Assembly: GCA_019155205.2 (NCBI GenBank)
Contig: JAHNZQ020000001.1
Coordinates: forward strand, 66,860 to 130,859
DNA length: 64,000 bases
Reading direction: 5' to 3'
From: Gracilaria vermiculophylla
Taxonomy: Eukaryota > Rhodophyta > Florideophyceae > Gracilariales > Gracilariaceae
This document shows positions 20,657 to 64,000 of this stretch, piece by piece. Numbering within the stretch: position 1 is the first letter of the stretch; every line of letters starts with the position of its first letter. A program made the position numbers and the translations under genes. The notes under the pieces were generated by a model, which made no database searches, was not told the DNA's origin, and was given only the letters and a program-made list of their open reading frames with translations.

Positions 20657-21343
<687 letters not shown>

Positions 21344-21889
21344 TAAGGTTTAAAAATTCGAAATATATTGGTCAAATATATTTCATTAAATTGAAAGTAA
21401 GGGGACTTATTGAAGTCCTAACTATAATATGTTGAGGTTCAATCCCTCCGGGTTACCGTCAACCCGCCTTTTAACCTTGATAAGGGATCCCAGGTATGGA
21501 AGAACTAAAGTTTAGCAAAGGTTAAAAGTAGTTATACAGTGCAATATACACGTAACGGTACACTCCTTAAGCCTCTTGTTCCGAACGTAAACTTCTTAGA
21601 AAAGAAGAGGAAAACTAGAAAGTTCTAGGTCTTGTACATGGTAGTTTCGTTTGGCTGACATGGACGGAAAGTTTTTTTTAACACAAGAAAGGGGTATTGG
21701 GTGGACCTAAATATAACAAGAATAACATTTTATGGAACATTGGTAGGCTCTTTTAAGCTCCTTAGGGTAGGTGATACGCCGTATGCTTATCAGAGTGGAG
21801 GAAACATTCAGAAGCCAACGCTTCTTTGCAATGGTGAAGGGGATATGCAGAAAGAATGTTAGCAAGAAACAAAATTCTTTAGGAAATAA

Positions 21890-23443
21890 ATGAGTAAATT
21901 CTTTTCTGAATTAACGTGGAACAAAATTGATTGGGGGAACTCATCCAATATAGTTCGAAGATCCCAACGAAGAATTTTCAAGGCAAGTAAATCAGGTGAC
22001 GTAAAAAATGTAAGACAATTGCAACAAAGATTGATCAGAAGTTCACATGCAAAATTAATTGCTGTACGACAAGTAACTACTTTCACTAAAAGCAAAAATA
22101 CTCCAGGTGTAGACGGTTTTGTTCCTACAACTCTAAGTATGAAATTGACACTTGCAAAGACTTTACATTTAAATGGAAATGCCTATCTCGTGAAAAGAGT
22201 ATGGATTACAAAACCTGGGAAAACGAAAAAAAGACCGTTAGGTATTTCCACAATTCAAGATAGAGCCAAACAAGCCCTGGCAAAGTTAGCTCTAGAACCT
22301 GAATGGGAAGCAAGATTTGAGCCTAATTCTTATGGATTTCGGCCAGGTCGAAGCAGCCATGATGCTATCAAAGCTATATTTTTAAATTTACGTCACAAAA
22401 CGGATAAACTTGTCTATGCCGCAGACATACGTAAATGCTTTGATAAAATAGATCCTGATACATTACTAGCTAAATTAGAAACTTTCTCTTTAATGGAAAG
22501 ACAAATAATGGCTTGGTTACAAACAGGTCTAATGAATGAATACGCTAATACACCAAGACATAATACAACGGGTACTCCTCAAGATGGGATTATTTCACCA
22601 TTATTAGCAAATATTGCATTACACGGACTTGAAGAACATCTTAAAAATTACGTGTCTTCACGTCAATTTCCCAAACCACATCCGAACGCTGCACGAGGAA
22701 CCAAAACTAAAAGAGCGGCACTTGGTTTTATAAGGTATGCTAATGATTTTATAATAATTCATCCAAACGCTGAGATAATGGAAAAAGTCATTCTTGAAAC
22801 AAAAGATTGGTTAGCTAACGTAGGTTTAGAAATTTCTCCGGAAAAGACAAAATTAAAGAAAGCAAGCGAATCTTTTAGGTTTTTAGGGTTTCAAATAACC
22901 TTAGTATCAAAACAAGAACAGTATCGGGTGAAAATAACTCCTTCCAAGGAGAATGTCAAACGGCTTACAGACAAGACACGTAAGATCATACAAAACAATA
23001 AATCAGCAAGCTCATATGAGTTAATCTATTTATTACGGCCAATCTTGATAGGATGGGGAAACTACTTTCAATATTGCGAATGTAAACAAACTTTTAAGAA
23101 AGTAGATAACGTTATATACAATCAAATCAGAGCGTGGGTATTCCGCCGGGCAACTCGACAAGGAAGAGAAACTGTTAAACAGAAATACTTCCCCGAGAAT
23201 AGGGTTTATAAATTTCAAAACCGTTCTTATAAAGCTAATTGGATCCTTAATGGTACAAGAACTTTAAAAGGAGGAAAACCCAGAACAACCCATCTTCCAA
23301 AAATGGCATGGATCGCCAGCCAAAACTATATCAAGGTAAAAGGAACAGCTTCAGTCTATGATGGAGATCATCTCTATTGGGCTGGGCGAAGTCTTAGTTA
23401 CAGTAACTTATTTACACCTAAACTGTCCAAAATGGAACTGTAG
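21890..23443 (+). CDS. Group II intron reverse transcriptase/maturase (altered active site)
   Basis: A 517-residue intron-encoded protein. Reverse transcriptase fingers and palm are clear: NTPGVDGFVPTT (about 72), RPLGISTIQDRAKQALAKLALEP (cut here to its core), SYGFRPGRSSHDAI, DIRKCFDKID (about 182), GTPQDGIISPLLANIALHG. The catalytic box at residues 283-286 reads YAND, not YADD, so the first of the paired aspartates is Asn. Domain X follows (about 370-470). The frame stops at 23443 just where a C-terminal Cys/HNH domain would begin; that domain continues in the +1 frame. Splicing help (maturase) may persist, while reverse transcription is doubtful. Confidence 0.92.
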   Translation: MSKFFSELTWNKIDWGNSSNIVRRSQRRIFKASKSGDVKNVRQLQQRLIRSSHAKLIAVRQVTTFTKSKNTPGVDGFVPTTLSMKLTLAKTLHLNGNAYLVKRVWITKPGKTKKRPLGISTIQDRAKQALAKLALEPEWEARFEPNSYGFRPGRSSHDAIKAIFLNLRHKTDKLVYAADIRKCFDKIDPDTLLAKLETFSLMERQIMAWLQTGLMNEYANTPRHNTTGTPQDGIISPLLANIALHGLEEHLKNYVSSRQFPKPHPNAARGTKTKRAALGFIRYANDFIIIHPNAEIMEKVILETKDWLANVGLEISPEKTKLKKASESFRFLGFQITLVSKQEQYRVKITPSKENVKRLTDKTRKIIQNNKSASSYELIYLLRPILIGWGNYFQYCECKQTFKKVDNVIYNQIRAWVFRRATRQGRETVKQKYFPENRVYKFQNRSYKANWILNGTRTLKGGKPRTTHLPKMAWIASQNYIKVKGTASVYDGDHLYWAGRSLSYSNLFTPKLSKMEL

Positions 23444-23576
23444 GGCCTGTAAGAAAAAGTTTCATTTGGAAGATTCCATAGAAGTGGACCATATTATACT
23501 ACGGTCTCAAGGAGGCGTCGAGAACTATAAAAACTTGCAATTATTACACCGACAATGTCATGTTAACAAAACTTAA
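23410..23576 (+). pseudogene. HNH endonuclease domain of the intron protein, out of frame
   Basis: In the frame one base off from the maturase, residues CPKWNCRACKKKF followed by EVDHIILRSQGG and NLQLLHRQCHVNK form the zinc-binding and H-N-H nuclease signature found at the C-terminus of many group II intron proteins. There is no ribosome site or likely start of its own, so a frameshift around 23410-23445 has separated it. It could be made only by frameshifting. Confidence 0.8.
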
Positions 23577-23678
23577 AAAGATCTCAGATCTAGCTTGGAA
23601 AATCTTGCAGGAGCCGGATGAAGGGAAACTTTCACGTCCGGATTTGAAGACGAGGCTATCTATAAATGGGTACCTTAG

Positions 23679-24440
<762 letters not shown>

Positions 24441-27086: not shown

Positions 27087-27386
27087 ATGGTTACTTACAA
27101 AGTGACGCTAGTAAGCGAAGAACATAGTATCAATTCTACAATTGACTGTAGTGATGATGTATTTGTATTAGATGCAGCTGAAGAACAAGGGATTGAATTA
27201 CCTTATTCGTGCCGTGCTGGTGCATGCTCTACTTGTGCAGGAAAAGTAGACAGTGGAAGTGTTGATCAATCAGAACAGACTTTTTTAGATGATGATCAAG
27301 TTGAAGCAGGTTTTGTTTTAACTTGTATTGCATATCCTAAGTCAGATTGTACAATTCTTGTTCACCAAGAAGATGAACTATACTAG
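27087..27386 (+). CDS. petF: Plant-type [2Fe-2S] ferredoxin (PetF)
   Basis: A 99-residue ferredoxin that takes electrons from photosystem I in the stroma. The four cluster cysteines are seen in [11 protein letters not shown] and VLTCIAYP, in the plant-type spacing. The acidic surface typical of ferredoxins is present ([19 protein letters not shown]). The start is set by AAGGAG 5 bp before the ATG. Confidence 0.98.
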
Positions 27387-28248: not shown

Positions 28249-28262
28249 TAGGAGGTATTGAG

Positions 28263-28595
28263 ATGAGCCTAGACGTATCGTATTCATATTGCAGTAAGCT
28301 GACAGAAGAGGAAAAACTTAAGATTGATAAAAAAGTTGAAGCAAATCTAAAATTTTTATTGGATCGAAAAATTATAAAAATTAGGTTTAAAAAAAAAAAG
28401 GTTTTTCTTACTTTAAAAAATAAAGTGAATTCTAGAAAAAAGAAAATTGTCTTATCTATAGCTTTATTTTTGACTGCTCTAACAATTCAACCCAAAACGT
28501 CAGAGTCGATGGGGTTTTGGGTTGAATTGTTGATAGGAATGAAGAGATTCATAGACTTTGTCCTGGAGCTCAAGTTCAAAATCAAAAGCCTATAG
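28263..28595 (+). CDS. Small basic protein with one hydrophobic segment, ahead of the toxin-like gene
   Basis: 110 residues, not recognised. A strong ribosome site (GGAGG at 28251, 7 bp before the ATG) supports real expression. The first 60 residues are Lys-rich, followed by a hydrophobic segment (IVLSIALFLTALTI) and an amphipathic end. Its TAG stop overlaps the GTG start of the next gene by one base, so the two are probably translationally coupled. An 18-bp inverted repeat lies inside its coding sequence (28481-28531). Confidence 0.5.
   Translation: MSLDVSYSYCSKLTEEEKLKIDKKVEANLKFLLDRKIIKIRFKKKKVFLTLKNKVNSRKKKIVLSIALFLTALTIQPKTSESMGFWVELLIGMKRFIDFVLELKFKIKSL
28481..28531. repeat. 18-bp inverted repeat within the operon
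   Basis: AACAATTCAACCCAAAAC (28481-28498) pairs perfectly with 28514-28531 around a 15-nt loop. It sits inside the ORF at 28263 and 64 bp before the toxin-like gene. No T run follows, so it is a stem-loop or recombination-type site rather than a standard terminator. Confidence 0.75.
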
Positions 28596-29635
28596 TGGCT
28601 CCAACAATTTCTCCACGCGTAGACAAAATACGTTTTAGAAGAGTTCCGGAATTACCGCTATATATTTACGCGATGGATCAAAATTTTGTTGTTAGGCCTG
28701 AAATTAGTAAAATTATAAAAGAACTAAGAGCAGGTGATTTGGGTACTGGAATCGTAGGAAGTACAGTTTTTTTAGTAGTGATATATGGTATTTGGCTAAT
28801 GGCATCCAATTCTAATGCTTTTATTCAGCAACCAAATGCAGATTGGGGATTAGCTAGACGAAATCCGTTTCAACCGCAAACGGCCGACCACAGATATCCT
28901 CCATCTTATGACTTATTCTTTCCACGAAGAACACCTGGTTGTCCGAGACCAGGATCAACTTTAGAAATTACTCGGCCGTCTTCAATGCCACATCAAGAAT
29001 TTGTTGGGTTAACGAAGGAAGAAAGACGCGCGCTTCCTCATAGTAATGATATGACAGTTATCCATGAGGGACGTCCAGAGTTAATGGTTGGCTTCTGGCA
29101 ATCAAAATTTAAAGTCGGTGATCATGGTGCGGTTCATGATTTACCTTATACTGTAAAAGCTAATGGTGGAACAAAAACTGAAAAAAGCAATGATAACGCA
29201 TTAAAAATGATGCGATCTATCGTTGATATGCCCAATCGCGACAATGTCCAATGGTTTGAAGACGGGACATATCAAAGTGGAACAGATCGCGAATTTAAGG
29301 CCATTCATATTTATGATTTAGATAAAAAGGTAATCGCGGTGTTTAAAAAATCAACAGGCAAATTTGTCACGACTTGTCAGCTTGACCGTGATGAACATAA
29401 TGAATTATTAAACACTGGAAATTTCGGTGGTGGAAAAGGATGGTTTAGTGGACAAGTTAAGAATTTACCTCCGCAACAAACAGCTGTAAATACGTTCGAA
29501 AGCGACGTTACGGGAATAACTCCTGTCAGTCCAATGGATGAAAATTCATCTCCAGGCTTTACTCCAACGAGTAGTTTTGAAAATGATGTAATGGGTATAA
29601 CTCCTATAGATAACTCACAATTGGATAACCCCTAA
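28595..29635 (+). CDS. Membrane-anchored protein with a colicin-D-like (BECR-fold) nuclease domain
   Basis: 346 residues from a GTG that overlaps the previous stop. Order seen: basic N-terminus; one membrane helix (STVFLVVIYGIWLMA, about residues 50-68); a Pro/Arg-rich linker (about 80-130); then, about 160-285, a domain whose pattern resembles the C-terminal tRNase domain of colicin D and related polymorphic toxins (KFKVGDHG, EDGTYQSG, AIHIYDLDKKVIAVF, TGKFVTTCQL). A low-complexity tail follows, with two similar FE(S/N)DV(T/M)GITP motifs. The next gene downstream resembles the colicin-D immunity family, which supports the reading. If active it would cleave RNA; activity is not established. 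It could instead be an unrelated plasmid protein. Confidence 0.5.
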   Translation: MAPTISPRVDKIRFRRVPELPLYIYAMDQNFVVRPEISKIIKELRAGDLGTGIVGSTVFLVVIYGIWLMASNSNAFIQQPNADWGLARRNPFQPQTADHRYPPSYDLFFPRRTPGCPRPGSTLEITRPSSMPHQEFVGLTKEERRALPHSNDMTVIHEGRPELMVGFWQSKFKVGDHGAVHDLPYTVKANGGTKTEKSNDNALKMMRSIVDMPNRDNVQWFEDGTYQSGTDREFKAIHIYDLDKKVIAVFKKSTGKFVTTCQLDRDEHNELLNTGNFGGGKGWFSGQVKNLPPQQTAVNTFESDVTGITPVSPMDENSSPGFTPTSSFENDVMGITPIDNSQLDNP

Positions 29636-29672
29636 AACGGGTTATTCTTATTTAGAATATTAGAAATTAAAA

Positions 29673-30131
29673 ATGACTTACAATCAAAAACGATACATAG
29701 AACTCTTGAAACATTCAGAAGATTTAAAGAATCTAGGAAAATCATTTTATCAAGAAAGTAAAGATGAGTACTTAGAATTATCAGAATATGAAGCAGCTAT
29801 TGCATCATACCTATATTGGAAAAATAGAACTCTATTTGTTCTACTTATGGAAAAATTCATCAATAAAATCATTAGTGGTGAAGAATTTAGCACCAGCTTT
29901 CTTGAACTCCGTCAAAGACTGATATATGAATGTGATGGTTTTCTAAAGGAGTTAGGTTCAGAAAAATTAAAAGATTTTCAGCTAGATCCGAGATCATACG
30001 GGTTTGGTAGTTTGATAAGCTTTTTAAGGGCTGAATGTGATAATTTTAATGAAGATTACCAAAACGAAGAATTCTATGATTCTATCAAAGACTGTTTTTT
30101 GAAACTACAAAAAGCTTTAAATAAAGAGTGA
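29673..30131 (+). CDS. Colicin-D-immunity-like protein
   Basis: 152 residues, soluble, acidic, mostly helical. The central pattern YWKNRTLFVLLMEKFINK, then ISGEEFSTSFLELR, followed by a helix around SLISFLRAECDNF and a final helix after FYDSIKDC, follows the layout of the colicin-D immunity family, which inhibits its toxin by masking the active site. It lies 37 bp after the toxin-like gene on the same strand, as toxin-immunity pairs do. Paralogs in this window are at 34444-34797 and 61472-61936, with a dead copy at 50958-51260. The extra N-terminal 50 residues are not explained. Confidence 0.55.
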   Translation: MTYNQKRYIELLKHSEDLKNLGKSFYQESKDEYLELSEYEAAIASYLYWKNRTLFVLLMEKFINKIISGEEFSTSFLELRQRLIYECDGFLKELGSEKLKDFQLDPRSYGFGSLISFLRAECDNFNEDYQNEEFYDSIKDCFLKLQKALNKE

Positions 30132-30176: not shown

Positions 30177-30795
30177 TTATACTTTGAGTTGTTGATAAAG
30201 TTTAGTTCTTCGTACAGTTTCATATTTGATTTGATATCCTTTAAGTTGAAATAAGCTGTTCGCTTCGCTCACTCGTTTCTAACTGAATTACTTTTTGTTG
30301 AAGTCTTGCGACTTGGTGCGCTAGCGAAGTAACCCGAAGTGGTAGAGAATGAAGTTGTTGGCGTAGGGCGTCGTAAGACTTTTGAAGAGTTTGAATCTTT
30401 GCATCCAAAGCAAGACTCGAACTTGGGTAAGTAGAGTTGGTAGCTTCAGTGTATCCAAATAAAAATTCTTGTAAAGCTGATTTTTTATTTTGTCGAATGA
30501 TGTTGTGTACTTTTTTCCAAAAGAAAGGTTGAAGATTTGTTTCTAAAATTTCGTAATCTTTTCCACTTTCGATAATTTCTGATGCGTAAAGAAAGAAACC
30601 GCGTAGGGATCTTATTTTGCGTTGTTTAGAATCTAATTCTTGAATCAAATCAATAGATTGATAAATAAAATCTAGCTGAATGGGTTCTTGTGCATAAAAG
30701 AAGAGATAGTAGTTTTGATCTACTAGAAAATATGAAAAAGAGATTTTTTGGTTTTTAAACTCATTAAAAAGAATTGTATCCTCAGGAATTTGTTA
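30177..30795 (-). pseudogene. Repeated plasmid-like family, longest copy (b), frameshifted
   Basis: On the minus strand an open frame begins near 30795 without ATG: FSYFLVDQNYYLFFYAQE, KQRKIRSLRGFFLYASEI, KDYEILETNLQPFFWKK, ALQEFLFGYTEA. A coiled-coil region follows (KIQTLQKSYDALRQQL; VARLQQKVIQLE). Around 30250 the frame shifts and the last 26 codons (SLFQLKGYQIKYETVRRTKL) end at 30177. This copy links the N- and C-terminal blocks seen separately elsewhere. A dispersed-repeat motif (GGGTTACTTCGCTAGCG) lies in the coiled-coil part. Function unknown. Confidence 0.6.
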
Positions 30796-31095
30796 ATCAA
30801 ATAAATATTCCCTTTTCCCTTTCATGAGATCGTAATGGGTCTCAAAAGAGACATGCCGATAACAAGTTAGAAATCAGTACTCTATCAAGTTACTTCGTTA
30901 GGCAGTTAAATCAATTACCAATTCAGAAACAATAGGAGTTGCATCTTAAAAATGTAAAAACTAAAATAGTAGATAAATTAACTCTTCTTATAAACAAAAT
31001 ATTTTTTAAAGTTAAAAAAATTAATAGCAATTTTGTTTTTGGTTTTTCTTGAGTAACATAATGTTTCTATCAATTAATTTATAAGAAGGAGATTT

Positions 31096-31167
31096 ATGGT
31101 TAAAACAAAATTAGCGAAAATAATCTTGACCTGTTTGGTTTATGGTTTTGCAAGTGGGTTGACTTAA
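31096..31167 (+). CDS. Leader-like micro-ORF, 23 residues
   Basis: A GAAGGAG ribosome site (31085-31091) 4-5 bp before the ATG, then a hydrophobic, signal-peptide-like sequence (KIILTCLVYGFASGL) ending in a stop. A second site GGAGGTGAGAAAATG follows at 31173-31187 but opens only six codons. It looks like the head of an operon cut off by the repeated-family copy that follows on the other strand. Confidence 0.3.
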   Translation: MVKTKLAKIILTCLVYGFASGLT

Positions 31168-31195
31168 AGAATTTGGAGGTGAGAAAATGAATGTG

Positions 31196-31426
31196 GAAAA
31201 ATCCTCGTAAGGAGCGTATTTTGCGTTGTTTGGAATCTAATTCTTTAATTATCTCAATGGATTGATAAAGAAAATGGATATCGATAGATTTTTGAGAATA
31301 AACGAAGAGATAATAATTTTGATCAACCTGAAAATAAGAAAAGAAAATATTTTGTTCTTTGAACAAATTAAAAATATTTGTGTCGTCAGCAATTTGTTGT
31401 GTTTGAAAAAAGAAAATGTTTTGCAT
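31196..31426 (-). pseudogene. N-terminal part of the repeated family (copy c)
   Basis: Starts MQNIFFFQTQQIADDTNIF and contains YFQVDQNYYLFVYSQKSI and KELDSKQRKIRSLRGFF, aligning with copies a and b. After RSLRGFF the similarity stops at about 31196; the frame runs on to 31100 in unrelated sequence. This copy shows the likely natural start of the family. Confidence 0.55.
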
Positions 31427-31834: not shown

Positions 31835-32923
31835 TTATTCTTTTATTCTTGAATTCCGGCTCTTTGCGACGGTGTCAGTGATGCTAGAAGCATCCCATGT
31901 GTCACTTTCATCAATATCGGCAGGATCACCGAAGAGATCTAAGAAATTAACCGTTTTACCTTTGCTAGCCTTCGAAATAGTAGTTTCAGGTTGTCCAAGA
32001 TCTAATATATCACTGAAATCCACACGATCTAATCCAGTTGTATCTTGCATATTTACCACTTCATCATATACTAATTCAGGTGGAGCCTGATTCACTGCAG
32101 TGGGTATTTGAGTAGGCTTTATTTGACAATTTGGGTTAAGGTAGGCTTGTTCAGGCAGCCAACATTCTTGTTTTGCTGGTACGATACTAGGTGCCTTTAC
32201 TCTATTGCGATAGTTAACAGTTACCACATCAGGTAAATCTGGAATCCTTGGCTTTATTTGACTAATTGGAAGTGTTTCATCAATAAAACTAGTTGGTAAT
32301 TTCTCCAGGTCCGTAAATGCGAGTTTTAGACCTCCTGTCGCCAGGAGAACAGCAACAACTATTGCGATAGGACCCCCAGCTACATAAAGTGGACCAACTG
32401 CACCCAGTAATACGGTTACAAATATCTTTCGAGTAGTTTGATACACATTTGTTAGACCAAAGTCGCCTATCGTAAAAGGTAATGCTAAAAAATCTTTGCC
32501 ATATGTTTTAGCTAGATGACAAACTGCAGTTGCAGTTATATAAATTATTTTTCCTCGACGCTTGTTAGCATACAAGTCGTGTATTATTTTTCTTATTCGA
32601 TCATTATCTAAATAGCGTAAGCCTTCTTCAACACCACAGTCTATGTAATCAACATCAATATAGGCGCCATTTCTATACTTCAAAATATTAAACATAGCTA
32701 CTCCAGATGCTCCTGATAAACTAACAGCTAACACTCTACGTAGGCTTTGGAGTTTTTTATAGCGTTCTATATGTTCTTTCAATTTTTGTAATTCTTCAAT
32801 TTTTTTTTTGTGAGAACGCATTTTACGGATAATAAAATAATCGATGAGTAATACACTCGGAACAAGAATCCAATATTCATTAATAAAAAATATACGGTTA
32901 GAAGAATATTTCCAAAATAGCAT
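31835..32923 (-). CDS. Unknown multi-span membrane protein, 362 residues
   Basis: Not recognised. Seen in order: an N-terminal hydrophobic segment (WILVPSVLLIDYFII); a charged coiled coil (KKKIEELQKLKEHIERYKK); a helix (VLAVSLSGASGVAMF); a soluble stretch; a helix around IIYITATAVCHLA; a Gly/Ala-rich double span (IFVTVLLGAVGPLYVAGG and IAIVVAVLLATGG); then about 150 soluble Pro- and Asp-rich residues (NFLDLFGDPADIDESDTWD). The frame is long and intact despite lying in decayed DNA, so it is probably under selection or recently acquired. It is flanked by 48-nt direct repeats and is next to the serine recombinase gene. Confidence 0.6.
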   Translation of the reverse strand: MLFWKYSSNRIFFINEYWILVPSVLLIDYFIIRKMRSHKKKIEELQKLKEHIERYKKLQSLRRVLAVSLSGASGVAMFNILKYRNGAYIDVDYIDCGVEEGLRYLDNDRIRKIIHDLYANKRRGKIIYITATAVCHLAKTYGKDFLALPFTIGDFGLTNVYQTTRKIFVTVLLGAVGPLYVAGGPIAIVVAVLLATGGLKLAFTDLEKLPTSFIDETLPISQIKPRIPDLPDVVTVNYRNRVKAPSIVPAKQECWLPEQAYLNPNCQIKPTQIPTAVNQAPPELVYDEVVNMQDTTGLDRVDFSDILDLGQPETTISKASKGKTVNFLDLFGDPADIDESDTWDASSITDTVAKSRNSRIKE

Positions 32924-33366: not shown

Positions 33367-34035
33367 ATGTTTGATGAAGTTCCTAAAAATTGTCGCTATG
33401 GGTATGCGCGTGTATCTTCGAAATCACAAGAAGAAAATTCTTCTTTAGAATCACAAAAAAAAGAGTTCCTTGACCGAGGTGTTCCGGAAAAAAATATTCG
33501 TATTGAAATAGGATCAGCTGCTGAGACTATTTCTGAGCGACCTGTTTTTTATAATTTAATCGACGAGGAATTAAAAGAAAATGATTTACTACTTGTGACT
33601 AAAATCGATCGTTGCAGTCGAAACACACTTGAGTTTTTAAAGTTACAGGAAAAATTTTTCAAAAAGAAAATTACATTTCTATCTTTAGACTTGCCGTATT
33701 CTAATGATATGGCAGTGAATAAGTTGATTGCAACGAATTTAGCGGCAATTGCTACTTTTGAAAATGAGCGTCGAAGAGAACGGCAACGTGAAGGGATAAA
33801 AGCTGCTAGAGCATCAGGTAAATATCTAGGTCGAAAAACTGTTATCAATAAAAAATTGATTGATGAAGTGAAGTACTTGAAAGAAAGTAAAAATTTATCG
33901 ATTACTCAAATAGCAAAATTAACTGGTCGCGGCCGTACAACAATTTATAAGGTTTTGAAAAAGGAATTAAATTATGTTCCATATAATCGATTAGTGAAAG
34001 CACCTAAAAGGGAGGGAGTCGATGAATCAAAATAG
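33367..34035 (+). CDS. serC: Serine recombinase (resolvase/invertase family, SerC)
   Basis: A 222-residue site-specific recombinase that breaks DNA through a phosphoserine link. The catalytic serine lies in YGYARVSSKSQ (about residues 12-20), with conserved VTKIDRCSRN (about 78-88) and the linker helix ENERRRERQREGIKAARASG. A C-terminal helix-turn-helix follows (SITQIAKLTGRGRTTIYKVL, about 178-197). Length and domains match the small recombinases of diatom plastid plasmids (from memory). The frame is intact and has its own promoter. It overlaps the next ORF by 14 bp. Confidence 0.93.
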   Translation: MFDEVPKNCRYGYARVSSKSQEENSSLESQKKEFLDRGVPEKNIRIEIGSAAETISERPVFYNLIDEELKENDLLLVTKIDRCSRNTLEFLKLQEKFFKKKITFLSLDLPYSNDMAVNKLIATNLAAIATFENERRRERQREGIKAARASGKYLGRKTVINKKLIDEVKYLKESKNLSITQIAKLTGRGRTTIYKVLKKELNYVPYNRLVKAPKREGVDESK

Positions 34036-34443: not shown

Positions 34444-34797
34444 TTAAGGATAACGATCTTTTATTTCTAACAAAGTTTTTTTCACGCAATTTCTTAATTC
34501 TTCTTCGGATATTTCATAATCCTCTCTTAACAATGGGTCAGCTTCAAATAATTCGCAGTCAAGGAATAAGTCTGAGATTAAAGATGAAAACCCATCTATT
34601 TCTGTTAATTTGAAATTTTCTGTTATGTAAACTAATTCTTCTGAATTATAAGTTTTGTCACGATCTGATTTCCACATTTGAAAAAATTGGTCAGAAAATT
34701 CTGTTCCACTAATCTTTTTATCAACAAATTTTTTCATTAAATCTAGATACATTTTATAATTTTCCCAATACTTAAAATTTCTTATCAATTTTTTCAT
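34444..34797 (-). CDS. Colicin-D-immunity-like protein (intact frame)
   Basis: 117 residues, acidic and helical. Pattern: YWENYKMYLDLMKKFVDKK, then ISGTEFSDQFFQMW, a helix around GFSSLISDLFLDCELFE, then YEISEEELRNCVKKTLLEI. This fits the colicin-D immunity family and aligns with the ORF at 29673. Its ATG directly abuts the stop codon (34798-34800) of a reading frame that looks like the end of a colicin-D-type nuclease, the exact order expected of such a pair. An imperfect GGAGGAA-type hairpin follows at about 34405-34439. Confidence 0.6.
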   Translation of the reverse strand: MKKLIRNFKYWENYKMYLDLMKKFVDKKISGTEFSDQFFQMWKSDRDKTYNSEELVYITENFKLTEIDGFSSLISDLFLDCELFEADPLLREDYEISEEELRNCVKKTLLEIKDRYP

Positions 34798-35078
34798 TTA
34801 TAAGGCTCCTCGATTTAGCATATTATCCAATTGATCATCTTTTAATAACCAACCACTAATAAATTTATTATTATCTCTATTAAAGAATACATTCAATCCC
34901 GTTTCAGGATTAAAGTAATGAGTAACTTCAATCCAGCCCCATCTACATAGGAACCACCTCGAATATTCGTTATTTTAGTGATTAATTCCTCTTGACTTAG
35001 AGAATTATTTTTGCATTCAACTGAAAGACGATACAATTCATTCATTTCCTTTTGGGTAAAATCGATTTCAGCTGGCAT
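34798..35078 (-). pseudogene. Broken colicin-D-type nuclease C-terminus
   Basis: Two frames on the minus strand each hold a part. The frame 34893-35078 has a helical stretch (FTQKEMNELYRL; SLSQEELITKI) and then NIRGGSYVDG. The frame ending at 34798 has a segment with HYFNPETGLNV and NKFISGW, the strand pattern of the colicin-D catalytic core, and ends NRGAL just before the immunity gene. The break lies at about 34938-34950. The N-terminal part of the catalytic domain is not identifiable, so the gene is dead. Confidence 0.55.
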
Positions 35079-35098
35079 CTGTTGTATAGCCTGAGTAA

Positions 35099-35386
35099 TT
35101 AGCTTTTTTTTTTTGATAAATTAGCATTTGAATCAATAGATCTCATAATTGGTGAAGTAGGCGGTAAAATCGGCAAACCGATTGCTTGCGTTGGAGCTAG
35201 TCCATTACCGAGAGAATTAATTAATTGCCCATAAACGAATATCCGCTTAGCTTTTGTAACGATTTTTTTCCGAATTTTAATCGTATAACAACAAATTTTT
35301 TCTGATAAAAATTCCTCTGATTGAATTGATTTACCGCAATAAGGGTATTTAAAAACTTCCACGGATACTTTATGCTTTTGTGTCAT
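35099..35386 (-). pseudogene. Reading-frame remnant upstream of the broken nuclease
   Basis: 95 residues, not recognised. It contains YPYCGKS and a Gly/Pro-rich stretch (GNGLAPTQAIGLPILPPTSP) of the linker type seen ahead of toxin domains. It may be an earlier part of the gene at 34798-35078. It overlaps the tail of the repeated-family copy at 35370. Confidence 0.3.
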
Positions 35387-35612
35387 AATTTTTTAAGTTT
35401 TGATATAATTTATTGCGTCTAATAGTTTCGTACTTGACGGAGTATCCTTTGAGTTGGAATAAGCTATGTTGTTGTGTGCTTTCATAATATTTTTTTAAGG
35501 ATATTTTGGCTTGAAGTTGAAATCCTGTTTGAATAATTTCGATTATCTCCTGCTCAGGAATCCTTCCCGGGCTTTGCCAATTGCAAAGCAATACGTCGCG
35601 CTGCTTCGGCAC
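35370..35612 (-). pseudogene. C-terminal part of the repeated family (copy d)
   Basis: Contains PEQEIIEIIQTGFQLQAK, SLKKYYESTQQHSLFQLKG and VKYETIRRNKLYQNLK, matching copies b and e. Upstream DNA to about 35700 is also similar to 60810-60900 but out of frame. No N-terminal half is present. Confidence 0.55.
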
Positions 35613-35768
35613 GTCGTCACCGAGGTTGTCTTCGGAAGTGATGAAATTTGGCTGATTTTGAGGTTTAGGCTTATCAGAGGGTGATTCTACTTAACCTGTT
35701 AAGTACGCTTAAATCGAGCATAAAGGCCCTCTAAAATGACATTTTATCTAGTTGTTTGAGAGTTTTGA

Positions 35769-36083
35769 TTATTGATAAAGTTTGTTTTTTCGAATAGCCT
35801 CGTATTTGAGACAGTAACCGTGAATTTTAAATAAACTATTTGGTTCTGTGCTTTCATAATACTTCTTCAATGAGATTGTTCCTTGAGCTTGAAGTTGAAA
35901 TCCTCTTTGAATAATTTCGATTCGCTCCTGTTCGGTAATTTTACTTAAAGTGATGAAATGTGGTCGATTTTGAGCTTTATTTTGATTTAATATAGATTTC
36001 TGAGTCTGAGAAGGTGTCTTAAAATAAATTTTAGAGGTGTCTGAAGGAATTTTTAAAATGGGTTCTTCAACCTTTGAATGGGT
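35769..36083 (-). pseudogene. C-terminal part of the repeated family (copy e)
   Basis: An open frame of about 100 codons without ATG: PSQTQKSILNQNKAQNRPHF, ITEQERIEIIQRGFQLQAQ, SLKKYYESTEPNSLFKI and YEAIRKNKLYQ before the stop. It is a tandem neighbour of copy d, 150 bp away, in the same orientation. Confidence 0.5.
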
Positions 36084-36673: not shown

Positions 36674-37687
36674 TTAAGAGTAAAGATTAAGAGCAGAATT
36701 AAAATGATCTATCAAACCTGAAAGGTGCGAAGCAATATCTGGCAAAAACTCCGGATTCAAAAACATTAAGCTATTTAAGCTATTTGGAAAATATTCGTGA
36801 AGAGTTTCCCGAAGAAGACTATTTGGGAAAAAATTTATATCACTATCTTTATATTCTCTTAGAAAATATTTTAAAATATCTGGTCTCTCTTTATACCAAA
36901 ATTCTCGAACTTCATTTGGAATAGGCTCCTTGGTCCATAAATATGGTAAATAATGAAAAACAAGAACATTTTTCTCTTGATTATTTATTAATAGCTTTTG
37001 TTCTTCTCCTTCACTTGGTAGAAAAGGCATAGTAAATACCAAATGATTTAAACTATCCGCTATAATACCAAGGATTCCTAAAAATACAGTTCCAGTTAAA
37101 TTAATACCTAATACTGCAGGTAGAATCCCTTGCAATACGTCTTCTGTCCAATCTACAGCAGCTGCTATATAACACCATGGAAAATTGTATGGATTAATCG
37201 AAATAAACCAAGATAAAGTAATTCTAAGAATTACGATTTGAGTATAAACCATAAAACCTACGAACACAACTTCACGAATAGTTTCTAAGACTGTTATATC
37301 CAAACAAATGTTTAAGTGTATTTGTAAAAATCCTGAGAACCAATCAGGTAAAAAGTAACTGTTTCTATAATTTTCAATATAAAAGTTATAAAATCCTTCT
37401 TCTTTACTTTCATAAAAATATCTCGGAATTCTGTCTAACTTTGGAGTAGGACCAAAAATCATTTCAAACAATGTCTCTGGTCTTTGAACTGGTGGCCAAC
37501 TAGTTTGATGAACTGGAAGCTTCGAAAGAAATTGTGAGCGAGAATCCATATTTGTAGAAAACTCCGGAGCAGTAGGCATTCCAGGATTTTCTGGATATCC
37601 AAAGTACCCAGCGATTTTTTGGAAAAAATTACTTACAATTTCATAAAAAGCGTTTCGAACGGGAAAAAATTTTTCGTTTAGACTCAT
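36674..37687 (-). CDS. ycf89: YGGT-type membrane protein, probably diatom Ycf89
   Basis: 337 residues. A soluble Pro-rich N-terminal region (about 1-110) is followed by hydrophobic spans. The middle part (VILRITLSWFISINPYN, then VDWTEDVLQGILPAVLG and a last span, about residues 150-225) has the RxxLSWF...P...D...P layout of the YGGT/Ycf19 membrane family. A soluble C-terminus follows. Diatom plastids keep a conserved gene of this kind near rbcS, called Ycf89; the symbol is from memory of the family. Role unknown; YGGT proteins are linked to membrane organisation. It lies upstream of nothing on its strand but trnP. Confidence 0.65.
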   Translation of the reverse strand: MSLNEKFFPVRNAFYEIVSNFFQKIAGYFGYPENPGMPTAPEFSTNMDSRSQFLSKLPVHQTSWPPVQRPETLFEMIFGPTPKLDRIPRYFYESKEEGFYNFYIENYRNSYFLPDWFSGFLQIHLNICLDITVLETIREVVFVGFMVYTQIVILRITLSWFISINPYNFPWCYIAAAVDWTEDVLQGILPAVLGINLTGTVFLGILGIIADSLNHLVFTMPFLPSEGEEQKLLINNQEKNVLVFHYLPYLWTKEPIPNEVREFWYKERPDILKYFLREYKDSDINFFPNSLLRETLHEYFPNSLNSLMFLNPEFLPDIASHLSGLIDHFNSALNLYS

Positions 37688-37928: not shown

Positions 37929-38160
37929 TTACTCTATCAAACTCTACTGATATACCTTACTAAATTTTTGAAAATTTTGCAAGATCTCTAATAAATTATT
38001 GAAATTATTTATTTCATTCTATTAAATTTTAATAGACATTGTAGAACAAAACTTAACAAGACCAATTTCTTTAGACCTCCGAGATAAATTGAAGAGGTCT
38101 TTTTATTAGCCCTAAAATTAAAAGTTACTCATTCATTTTTTGACAATCTAAGATCACTTT

Positions 38161-38345: not shown

Positions 38346-38765
38346 TTAGTAACGACCACCCTCTGGATTAGCTTGAACACTATAGCTTTTAATAGTATAA
38401 GCAATTCTACGAGCTTCGCATTCTTGTCGCTCTAAGTAGAATCCTGGTTCATTCGTAGGACGATTTACAATGAAAGACATTACACAACTTTCAGTACCGT
38501 ATGCAGCATTAAATGCGTTAATACGAATATAACCAGCTGCGCATGATTTACGGGCTTCACGTAATTCAAACATTACAGATCCAGGATCTTTTACATCAAA
38601 TAATGGTAAACCCCATAATTCCCAGTAACTATTACGAGGATGTGGATCATCGGTCCACTCAACGTTCATTGCCCAACCTTTGTTGATACAATAAGCAATT
38701 TGTTTTTCAATTTGTTGATCAGTTAAATCGGGTAAAAACGAGAAACAACCTTGTGTAAGTCTCAC
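38346..38765 (-). CDS. rbcS: Rubisco small subunit
   Basis: 139-residue small subunit of red-type (form ID) Rubisco. It starts MRLTQGCFSFLPDLTDQQI; blocks EWTDDPHPRNSYWELWGLP and YIRINAFNAAYGTESC are typical, and the C-terminal extension that forms a hairpin in red-type enzymes is present. It lies 122 bp after rbcL on the same strand, as an operon, with a terminator behind it. Confidence 0.98.
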   Translation of the reverse strand: MRLTQGCFSFLPDLTDQQIEKQIAYCINKGWAMNVEWTDDPHPRNSYWELWGLPLFDVKDPGSVMFELREARKSCAAGYIRINAFNAAYGTESCVMSFIVNRPTNEPGFYLERQECEARRIAYTIKSYSVQANPEGGRY

Positions 38766-47856: not shown

Positions 47857-49758
47857 TTAATTTTTTGATGGTAAAAGTGTATACTCCTGAATAACTTCCC
47901 GGAATTCTTCTCCATTAATGGTCTCTGACTCTAACAACTGTTCAACAACTACATCTATAATTGGCCGATGCTTCATTATAATTTCATTAGCTGCTTGTTC
48001 GCAATGACGAATAATTTCTCTAACTTCTTTGTCAACTTTATTATTTATAATTTCATTTTTCTCACTTCCGAATAAAAATTGATCATTGCTTTCCGTTTCA
48101 ATAGCTACTGGACCAAGGAGTGACATTCCATAGCGAGTAACCATTTGTCGAGCTAAGCCTGTAGCTCTTTGTAAATCATTGCTAGCACCTGTTGTTATTT
48201 CAGGTTCACCAAAGATAACTTGTTCCGCTGCTCTACCACCTAAAATTGTCATTATACGTTCCATTAATTCAGACTTAGTAATTAACATCTGTTCTTGATC
48301 GGGGGCAAACCATGTTAACCCTTTTGCACTACCTCGTGGAATTAAAGTTACTTTTTCAACATCATCATGGTTCTCAAGTACAGATCCGATCAGAGCATGC
48401 CCAACTTCATGGTAAGCTACTAATCTTTTAGTTTTATTTTCTTCCATGCTAGTCCCAGCAATTCCACCGATAACTCGATCTACTGCTTCATTAACTTCTT
48501 GCTTTGTAATAATAGATTTTTGATATCTTGTTGCTAAGATTGCAGCTTCATTTAGCAAATTAGATAAGTCTGCCCCAGAAAAGCCAGCTGTTCTGTTGGC
48601 TAATTGAACAAGTGATACATTTTTGTCAAATGGTTTATTTTTTGCGTGAACTTTTAGTATACCGATCCGTCCTAAACGATCTGGTAAACCAACAGTAATT
48701 TGGCGGTCAAATCGACCTGGTCGTAATAATGCTGAATCCAAAATATCAACTCGGTTTGTAGCACCTACTACAATAACACCTTTATTTTCTTTAAATCCGT
48801 CCATTTCTGTTAGCAATTGATTTAAAGTTTGCTCACGTTCATCATTTCCACCACCAATTCCGGCTCCACGTTCACGTCCAACTGCATCAATTTCGTCAAT
48901 GAAGACAATACAAGGCGTATTTTCCGAAGCTTTCTTAAATAAATCGCGTATTCTAGAAGCTCCAACACCGATAAACATTTCAACAAATTCTGAACCCGCA
49001 ACACTATAGAATGGGACATTGGCTTCATTAGCAATTGCTTTTGCCAATAAAGTTTTTCCAGTTCCCGGAGGTCCTACTAATAAGACACCTTTTGGAATTT
49101 TTGCTCCAACTAAACTATATCTTTCTGGTTCTTTTAAAAAAGATACAATCTCTTCAAACTCTGCTTTGGCTTCATCAATACCGGCAATGTCGTCAAATGA
49201 TATACCAGTATCTGGATTTTGGTCAAACCTAGCTGTTGATTTACCTAAATTCATTGGAGATGAACCATTTGTTCCGCCAAAATTTTCTGAATTTTGGAAA
49301 AAGAAAATTAAGCTTCCAATAAAAACTAATGGTAGAAGTAAATTACTTGCGAGAGTTAAAAAAATACTTTTTTGAGGAGCTGGATGTGCATCAAAATTAA
49401 TATTGTTGTCTTTTAATTTTTGAATAAGCTGCGAAGCACCTATCGGAATTTCTACGCGAATCGATTGTGGTCGATTTCCTAATTCAGGACTAGAAGCTTG
49501 AACAATCGCATTTCGCCCATTATCGTATAAATCTACTTGATTTACCCAACCCATATCTAGATATTCTAAAAATCTTCCATATGTCATTTTTGAACTACTG
49601 ACATTCGAAGCAGTTGATGATTCTATTGATTGAACTGTATGCATTCCTGGTGTTTGTAAATTTTCTGTAAGATTAAAATCAAAAGTTTTTAAACCAAGAA
49701 AAATACAAGCTCCAAAAAATAATCCGACAAGAATTTTTTGTATTATATTTCGATCCAT
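47857..49758 (-). CDS. ftsH: FtsH membrane metalloprotease
   Basis: 633-residue AAA+ zinc protease (Ycf25) of the thylakoid membrane, which removes damaged photosystem II D1 protein in this group. Two N-terminal membrane segments (about residues 9-25 and 132-150) enclose a lumenal part. Walker A GPPGTGKT near residue 229, Walker [12 protein letters not shown], the arginine finger region RPGRFDRQI, and the protease motif HEVGH near residue 451. Intact and of normal length. Confidence 0.97.
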
Positions 49759-50897: not shown

Positions 50898-50957
50898 AAT
50901 CGATGTCATTTTTTTTTTTTCTCCACGATTTTTCTATCAATTTACCAGTAGTGAGAT

Positions 50958-51260
50958 GAAATATTTTATAGATGCTATCAAAAGCTACCACCGTGGGCAA
51001 TTCTATAAAATTCAGGATTATTCAAATAGCCTGAGTGATTATCTTTTTTGGGAAGCTGGTGAATTCTATCTAGAACAAATTGACTAATAGAAAGTTTGTG
51101 GATAGCTTTTTTTTTCAGCTCTTAAATGATAGCTTAACAAGAAAATTTTAAAAAAACAGGAAAGATTAGAGCGAAATCCAAAAAGTTATCCATTTTCAAA
51201 AATTATTGATAATTCTTATTTCGAAGCCTTTGATGAAGACCCTCAGATTGAACCAGGGTA
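50958..51260 (+). pseudogene. Dead copy of the immunity-like family
   Basis: Starts MKYFIDAIKSYHRGQFYKI and NSLSDYLFWEAGEFYLEQ, then two stops near 51085. A second piece near 51160-51260 has ERNPKSYPFSKII and EAFDEDPQIEPG. Both align with the intact gene at 61472-61936 (FLDAIKSYYHWQYYRI, NPNSYQFSKII, EGFDDEPELG). Frame breaks and stops make it nonfunctional. Confidence 0.65.
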
Positions 51261-51575
51261 GTACTCAATAACCAAAGCTCCATTACAGCAAATAGTGAAA
51301 AATCTGTTACCAAAAGCTTGGAAAAATTCTATTACTAAACTTAATTTATCTTTATCTTCATTATCGGGCTTTATTTTATCCTCTGAGAACCTATTCCAAT
51401 TGGTAAATACGTTTCTATCTTTCTTGATCAGATAATTTGTTAATATACTGAAATGTGGTATCCAACTTTCTATATCCAAGGGTTTGTTTGACATACTCAA
51501 TACCTTTTTCCATAACTGTGTACTATAACCAATACGAAAGCTGTGGCTTGTAATATTAGGTTGACCAAGGGCCAA
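51243..51575 (-). pseudogene. tyrC: Fragment with the arginine box of a tyrosine recombinase
   Basis: The first 23 residues contain ITSHSFRIGYSTQLWK, the HxxR-type box that precedes the active tyrosine in integrases. The following 87 residues are unrelated to a recombinase end, so the gene is cut right after the box. The missing type of C-terminus is found at 5894-6262. Probably a chimeric, nonfunctional frame. Confidence 0.5.
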
Positions 51576-61471: not shown

Positions 61472-61936
61472 TTATTCTTCTATGAAATACTTCTCTACTC
61501 TCGTTAAGACATCCTTCACTATACGACGTAATTTATCTTCGCTTACGAAGCTTGAATCACCAAGTTCAGGCTCGTCATCAAATCCTTCTAAAACGAAATA
61601 GAAGTCACTAATAATTTTTGAAAATTGATAACTATTTGGGTTTAGTTCTAATGTTTCTTGTTTTTTAAAATCTTTTTTTAAAAGCTTGGATTCTTCTTGG
61701 TCATTTAAGAGTTTAAAATAAAAGTGATCGAGGAATTCCCTTCCCGTCAGTTCGTAAGACACAAATTTTTGCATTTCTTCCAAATAAAACGCACGATATT
61801 TCCAAAAAACACAATCGCTAAGGCTATCCGCGTAATTCTTAATTCTATAATACTGCCAATGATAGTAACTTTTTATCGCATCTAAAAACCCTTTAATGGC
61901 AGTATTGTTAAGGTTCATTTTTTCTTCTTTTTCCAA
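61472..61936 (-). CDS. Immunity-like protein, colicin-D-immunity type paralog
   Basis: 154 residues, soluble, acidic, helical. DCVFWKYRAFYLEEMQKFV, then YELTGREFLDHFYF, NPNSYQFSKIISDFYFVLE, and a final EDKLRRIVKDVLTRVEKYF. It shares the arrangement of the ORFs at 29673 and 34444 and is close to the dead copy at 50958. No toxin-like frame lies directly upstream on its strand. It may be an orphan antidote or belong to the decayed genes at 62-64 kb. Intact frame. Confidence 0.55.
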   Translation of the reverse strand: MEKEEKMNLNNTAIKGFLDAIKSYYHWQYYRIKNYADSLSDCVFWKYRAFYLEEMQKFVSYELTGREFLDHFYFKLLNDQEESKLLKKDFKKQETLELNPNSYQFSKIISDFYFVLEGFDDEPELGDSSFVSEDKLRRIVKDVLTRVEKYFIEE

Positions 61937-63014: not shown

Positions 63015-63269
63015 TCACGATTCCTCTTCAAAGTCCCAAAAAGCACGTTTTTCCTCTGCTAATTTATTGAAAATAGAAATATCAATTTCATCAGCAAATT
63101 GGTAAAGTTTTAGATAGTAACCTTCATTTTTTGCATAAGCTTGGATTGCTTCTGTAACAATTTCTTTCGTTAGTTTTTTGACGATGATCTTTGGAGCCCC
63201 AGGTGTAATAAAGTTTGTTTTTTCTTGCTCCATTGCATCCTTTAAATCTCCCGGAGTACTAACGTCCAT
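63015..63269 (-). CDS. Unknown 84-residue acidic ORF behind the toxin-like remnant
   Basis: Not recognised. It starts MDVSTPGDLKDAMEQE, is mostly helical (TKEIVTEAIQAYAKNEG; IFNKLAEEKRAFWDFEEE) and acidic at its end. It overlaps the preceding frame by 28 bp in another reading frame. This could be translational coupling of a downstream partner (for example an immunity or antitoxin gene), or simply the same gene continued after a frameshift. Confidence 0.35.
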   Translation of the reverse strand: MDVSTPGDLKDAMEQEKTNFITPGAPKIIVKKLTKEIVTEAIQAYAKNEGYYLKLYQFADEIDISIFNKLAEEKRAFWDFEEES

Positions 63270-64000
63270 TGTATACGTATTACCACAATTTTATCAGGTT
63301 CTCCATCTTTCCCAGGTTGCATTAGCATTCGAGTATTTGAAAACTTAAGTTCTTTTAAGCTTTTAAAACCTTTAAAATCTTTTTGATTTCGTGGAAGAAG
63401 CTCTCCTTTATCTATTTTACTTAGTGCTTCCAGCACTTCTTGCTGAGCATTCGGATTTTTCCAAACTTTTCCTAATGCTTTTTTAGCAGTTTTAGTTTCT
63501 AAACCATAAATATATTCGGAACTGTCTGGCAATTCATCAATCCCTCCTTTGTTTTGTTTATGAATCGGACATTGCTCTTCTTCACTCTCGGAACTCGAAC
63601 TTTCTTCCACTGATTCTACTTTTGGGTATTGTGGAAAGCCATCATCCCCGTCATCACTTCCTGAGCCACCATTATTCGGTTTCCCAGGATTGTTAGGTTT
63701 TGCCGAAAGAGCTCGACGACTAGTCTGATGCTGGGGAGGTTTATTGCTATATGCATCTACATCTTTTGCCTCAGATTTTAATGGTAATAAAAAATAGAAA
63801 ACTCACGTTCGAAAAGAGTCCGGATCAATATCGATACCTTTCTTTCTAAGTCTTTTTAAGTCGACCCATTGCCTTGGAAATTTTACCTTCTCGAATAGCT
63901 TTAATTAAACTTCACATCATAACATAAAAACTAGACGGAGTTTGAATTGATAATATGGAAAGGATAAAAACTATACAAAGCACAAAATTACGACGTCCAG
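63242..64000 (-). pseudogene. Degraded polymorphic-toxin-like gene with a RelE/ParE-like end
   Basis: Minus-strand pieces. 63242-63610 (GTG) is open further up to about 63820: a linker rich in Pro, Gly, Asp and a Ser/Glu run, then a basic domain of about 75 residues (KALGKVWKNPNAQQEVLEAL, ELLPRNQKDFKG, SNTRMLMQPGKDG, KIVVIRI). Its helix-helix-strand pattern recalls RelE/ParE-type (BECR) nucleases. Upstream, near 63835-63910, AIREGKISKAMGR and KKGIDIDPDSF lie in other frames, so at least two frameshifts break the gene; it runs out of the window. Function inferred only from pattern. Confidence 0.4.

Follow-up and report, generated by a model that had tools for sequence, protein, structure and literature searches.

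Toxin-immunity pairs are known from prokaryotes, among them colicin D, which cuts tRNA-Arg in the anticodon loop and relies for catalysis on a His with Lys partners and a Ser/Trp motif. In the 64,000-nucleotide stretch of plastid DNA analyzed here (the window, positions 66860-130859 of C2, a 497,724-base contig of the 44.8-Mb, 27-contig Gracilaria vermiculophylla assembly), the frames ORF110, ORF346 and ORF152 likely form a locus that encodes a toxin of the colicin D type together with its immunity protein, lies within a plasmid-like insert of a diatom plastid genome and favors the DNA that carries it.

The locus resembles colicin D and ImmD of E. coli (PF11429/PF09204; PDB 1v74, 1tfo, 5znm) in the predicted fold of the toxin domain and in having the immunity gene after the toxin gene; in addition, the ORF152 family is related to PF09204 and a pair on a second contig, C19, matches both Pfam models. 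It differs from colicin D in being plastid-encoded and apparently membrane-anchored, with no recognized receptor or translocation domain, and in that ORF346 has a rearranged catalytic motif and a conserved C-terminal tail, its toxin domain being about 16-20% identical to colicin D in structural alignments. Unlike CdiA-CT/CdiI (PDB 8ey4, 6d7y), the plastid proteins are not giant and secreted; they are about 300-450 aa long with a short anchor, and no secretion or delivery apparatus was recognized for them among the ORFs scanned. A further likeness is to the serC/ORF regions of diatom plastids, described as plasmid-derived (PMC8070900; PMC8268801), which in the available portions of PMC8070900, PMC8268801 and PMC9235467 hold a serine recombinase and unnamed ORFs with no assigned function. 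Within those portions ‘toxin’ and ‘colicin’ are absent from all three texts and ‘immunity’ from that of PMC9235467, and the plastid and organelle genome papers text-searched for ‘colicin’, ‘toxin’ and ‘immunity’ mention none of these terms in the text available. The parts of the locus are of known prokaryotic kinds; their plastid setting, their small build with an anchor and the stacking of immunity genes, like toxin-immunity genes of plastids in general, were not found in the literature searched, with subscription papers and preprints outside its scope.

The predicted toxin and its probable immunity partner

ORF346 (28595..29635, plus strand, 346 aa) combines a putative membrane-anchor part with a domain that has the colicin D fold in the predicted model. 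The first-pass annotation of this DNA had proposed such a fold for the C-terminal domain, and the AlphaFold model bore it out by matching colicin D in both Foldseek and VIA-align. The match is limited to model residues 148-277; the toxin domain, which includes K173, H177, Q227 and T259, spans residues about 148-280 (29036..29434, plus strand). ORF346 has 188 relatives, and in the 116-121 aligned rows of the family the active-site-like K173 and H177 are near-invariant; compared with the colicin D motifs, the His does not sit where KHAGDFG has it, and FVTTC stands in place of FLSGW. The Pfam profile search of ORF346 returned 0 families and no PF11429 match. A hydrophobic segment at residues 52-70 (28748..28804, plus strand; hydropathy 2.08 over 19 residues) is a likely membrane anchor, modeled as one hydrophobic helix at residues 52-71 within a low-confidence N-terminal part, and judging from this segment the protein is probably held in a plastid membrane. 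At the other end, a conserved tail with two FES/END-DV..GITPI repeats (29495..29632, plus strand, ending GITPIDNSQLDNP) is kept across the family, and it also occurs 3’ of another C19 frame (L005:1498-1752, minus strand).

ORF152 (29673..30131, plus strand, 152 aa) had been read as a helical protein like the colicin D immunity protein; its predicted model is all-alpha, and ImmD ranks first for it in VIA-align. It scored 12.2 bits against Colicin_immun (PF09204), below the cut-off of 22; a single BLASTP comparison with a PF09204 protein aligned 86 residues at 35% identity (E 3e-11), and hhalign gave a probability of 96.9 (E 1.9e-10). On these sequence comparisons ORF152 shares descent with accepted PF09204 members, and it is likely an immunity protein. 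The family has 187 relatives, so both genes are widely represented, where the first-pass annotation had named wide conservation of one without the other as a refuting case. Close relatives include P0129 (91% identical), which derives from an MMETSP transcript, and P0218 from Climaconeis cf. scalaris (152 aa, 76%). An orf152 adjoins serC in a gene list of PMC8268801, and we infer that this orf152, P0218 and ORF152 are one gene.

The locus had been annotated as a possible intact operon of three coupled plus-strand frames behind a strong ribosome site. All three frames are present, and an AGGAGG ribosome-binding site (28250..28255, plus strand) lies 7 nt 5’ of the first ATG, which belongs to ORF110 (28263..28595, plus strand, 110 aa). 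ORF346 starts with GTG, which the TAG stop of ORF110 overlaps by one base; overlap is confined to this junction, because 37 nt separate ORF346 from ORF152. A hairpin between these toxin and immunity genes (29623..29647, plus strand) has weak statistical support (z -1.9; equally good folding in 11 of 200 shuffles). The longest stop-to-stop frame spans 369 codons, and none of 1000 mononucleotide shuffles of the stretch gave one above 194. GC content by codon position is ordered in ORF346 and ORF152 as in petA, rpoC1 and sufB, an order from which ORF110 departs.

ORF110 had been described as a small hydrophobic protein, a claim that we had to abandon. None of its 19-residue windows reached the threshold of the hydropathy scan, and residues 1-84 are conserved as the toxin N-terminus, aligning with P0310 (63%, E 7e-30) and P0074 (62%, E 1e-29), longer toxins that are continuous with their N-terminal module; an independent hydrophobic protein was therefore ruled out. 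Among 121 aligned proteins, 71 extend at least 60 residues 5’ of the ORF346 start point and three others start near it, the remainder being shorter fragments or unaligned there. ‘Intact’ accordingly holds in part: ORF346 and ORF152 are open, but the N-terminal module sits in a separate frame. The split between ORF110 and ORF346 may be a lesion, or it may be a two-gene form with coupled translation.

Related pairs, exchanged tips and orphan immunity genes

A reference pair for the colicin D type lies on C19. A 121-aa frame there matches PF11429 (5.8e-14, 52.6 bits) and the PDB colicin D (about 1e-14) and retains KHSGDFG and FLSGW, and a PF09204 gene (56.5 bits) overlaps its 3’ end by one base; a second C19 paralog also passes the PF11429 cut-off (35.5 bits). 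The profile check suggested in the first-pass annotation was thus answered by paralogs on C2 and C19, which pass both Pfam models, and not by the window pair itself, where ORF346 found no family and ORF152 stayed below threshold. Across the whole assembly PF11429 and PF09204 matched only on C2 and C19, in two places each, and each model matched one of 14 control genomes. The C19 pair adjoins psaA, which is open in the stretch read and differs from the C2 psaA over 446 codons (DNA 88.7%, protein 98.2% identical; 78 of 171 fourfold sites differ). C19 has the look of a separate plastid genome, and we take it to represent a different plastid lineage within this assembly. Both contigs carry immunity-family sequence downstream of a tufA-rps10 block. 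The toxin-then-immunity order noted for the window recurs at C2:53736-55330 and in the C19 pairs, giving four colicin-D-type or colicin-D-like toxin frames, the window pair included, with an immunity-family gene directly 3’.

The N-terminal part of ORF346 is also found with other tips. A 390-aa protein at C2:155030-156202 is 59% identical to ORF346 over 76 N-terminal residues and has a dissimilar tip; of its 153 matches in the retrieved protein set, 85 stop at or before residue 260. Its gene overlaps by one base a following pentapeptide-repeat-like gene, which scores too low for the Pentapeptide models and passes the LD_SV2 cut-off. This 390-aa protein (L002:362-2013, minus strand) is without a roughly 33-residue VEVKNP stretch kept by its relatives, and is still in frame beside its partner; the stretch resembles that of PD-(D/E)XK nucleases, and a Pfam search of those relatives tested returned no nuclease. 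A 367-aa protein at C2:54227-55330 is in turn 34% identical to the 390-aa protein over 132 residues of its N-terminal part, carries KHAHHGPDFG in its tip and is followed by an immunity-family gene, both being under every Pfam cut-off. Since one anchoring part bears a colicin-D tip and an unrelated tip with a pentapeptide-repeat-like partner, we read this as a polymorphic toxin-immunity system, and its traits include a shared N-terminal part with different tips, immunity genes left as orphans and pieces of displaced toxins. The toxin family is apparently large and unrecognized. One anchor with different killing tips suggests that plastid DNAs may be armed against each other. Elsewhere in the window, overlapping 122- and 84-aa frames (63015-63610, minus strand) look like remnants of another toxin, and their linker EESSSSESEEEQCPIH recurs at C2:6115-6594 ahead of a different tip.

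Besides ORF152, two immunity genes in the window stand without an intact toxin. One, of 117 aa (34444..34797, minus strand), passes the PF09204 cut-off (1.7e-10, 41.8 bits) and is open, and the adjoining toxin is reduced to remnants on the same strand: a C-terminal piece directly upstream (34804..34932; matching the colicin D protein of C19 at 58% over its residues 78-120) and N-terminal and membrane-module pieces (34893..35386; 61-aa and 95-aa frames, 46% and 72% to P0290). A third immunity-family gene, of 154 aa (61472..61936, minus strand), was recognized by alignment and tblastn to other immunity proteins and had no match of its own in the Pfam search. A broken immunity gene (50947..51324, plus strand), 39% identical to the 154-aa protein, is interrupted by stops. 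In the 144,800 non-N bases of C2 that were surveyed, immunity-family genes or remnants start at 38126, 51953, 52550, 53739, 96532, 101306, 117806 and 128334. Six of these are open, at 117-158 aa, and the other two are broken. Immunity outlasting toxin would be expected if toxins come from elsewhere.

The same remnants bear on the possibility of a plasmid relic, a module with a genuine toxin fold that decays as a passenger of plasmid inserts and has no activity in this plastid. The separate frames of ORF110 and ORF346, the decayed toxin and broken immunity gene in the window and the stretch missing from the 390-aa protein are consistent with such a relic; against it, ORF346 and ORF152 are open, the near-invariant residues persist through the aligned family, both families have many relatives (188 and 187) and the six C2 immunity-family frames are uninterrupted. 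We consider a relic unlikely. Orphan immunity genes and swapped tips are also better fitted by competition than by a defense against phages or plasmids entering plastids, that is, an abortive infection of the organelle. BECR-type RNases do serve in defense, but PADLOC found no match among the five proteins tested, and we hold this explanation to be very improbable.

Plastid setting of the module

The long ORFs of the window are plastid genes, in keeping with the plastid genome setting first proposed, and ycf90 matches Pfam at 4.5e-61. Other ORFs we take to be rpoB, rpoC1, rpoC2, rps2, atpB, atpE, tatC, petA, petF, rbcL, rbcS, sufB, sufC, atpA, ftsH, psaA and psaB. The stretch from petF (27087-27386) to rbcS (38346-38765) holds the toxin-immunity module and, near it, a serine recombinase of the serC type (33367..34035, plus strand; PF00239, 1.6e-26) that belongs to the plasmid-derived region. 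Relatives of ORF346 and ORF152 carry the organism names Entomoneis, Pleurosigma, Haslea, Navicula, Climaconeis and Nitzschia, all pennate diatoms. The host DNA of the module is a diatom-type plastid genome with a plasmid-like insert.

Bacterial contamination or a nuclear copy was ruled out because open plastid genes surround the module on one contig. A recent bacterial plasmid source was rejected because ORF346 had no tblastn match among 72,556 plasmid records; for the C19 immunity protein a single weak one turned up (28.7%, E 9e-3). A phage origin was likewise dismissed, as neither ORF346 nor ORF152 matches any PHROG.

The presence of the pair in several named diatom genera, and the reuse of RNase folds in regulation, would fit a pair recruited as a plastid housekeeping or stress RNase with its modulator, outside any conflict. 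Exchanged tips, several immunity-family genes and the association with recombinases are hard to reconcile with that role, which we regard as improbable.

The region around the module is rich in inserts. Pieces of a repeated 342-aa family (30241-31426, 35370-35893 and L030:5008-6036, all minus strand) flank many toxin-immunity loci on both contigs, and two further minus-strand frames encode a 362-aa protein with no Pfam match (31835-32923) and one of 337 aa whose YGGT match stays below threshold (36674-37687). Farther away, atpB is split by an insert (20657-24440, plus strand) with a 517-aa reverse-transcriptase-like frame, as expected for a group II intron.

Proposed role in plastid conflict

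We favor a colicin-D-type toxin with its immunity protein, in which ORF346 would be anchored in a plastid membrane by the N-terminal part common to many family members. FtsH may release the tip, a guess prompted by the frame of this plastid that we take to encode FtsH (47857-49758). Once freed, the domain would, by analogy with colicin D, cut the anticodon arm of a plastid tRNA and halt plastid translation, and ORF152, from the next gene, would bind the toxin domain and block or cover it. Where the matching immunity gene is missing, the plastid or plastid DNA would be poisoned, to the advantage of the carrier DNA, and we infer a role in addiction or plastid competition. We place about even confidence in the broader proposal that pennate diatom plastid genomes and plasmids have their own toxin-immunity conflict, in which a polymorphic system with exchangeable nuclease tips and an accumulation of orphan immunity genes decides which plastid DNA survives when plastids or plasmids meet in one cell.

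An active module would amount to post-segregational killing or competition within a photosynthetic organelle. The long survival of plasmid inserts in diatom plastids and biased plastid inheritance would then have a testable cause, and an ORF family left without a function in the plastid genome papers searched here would gain names.
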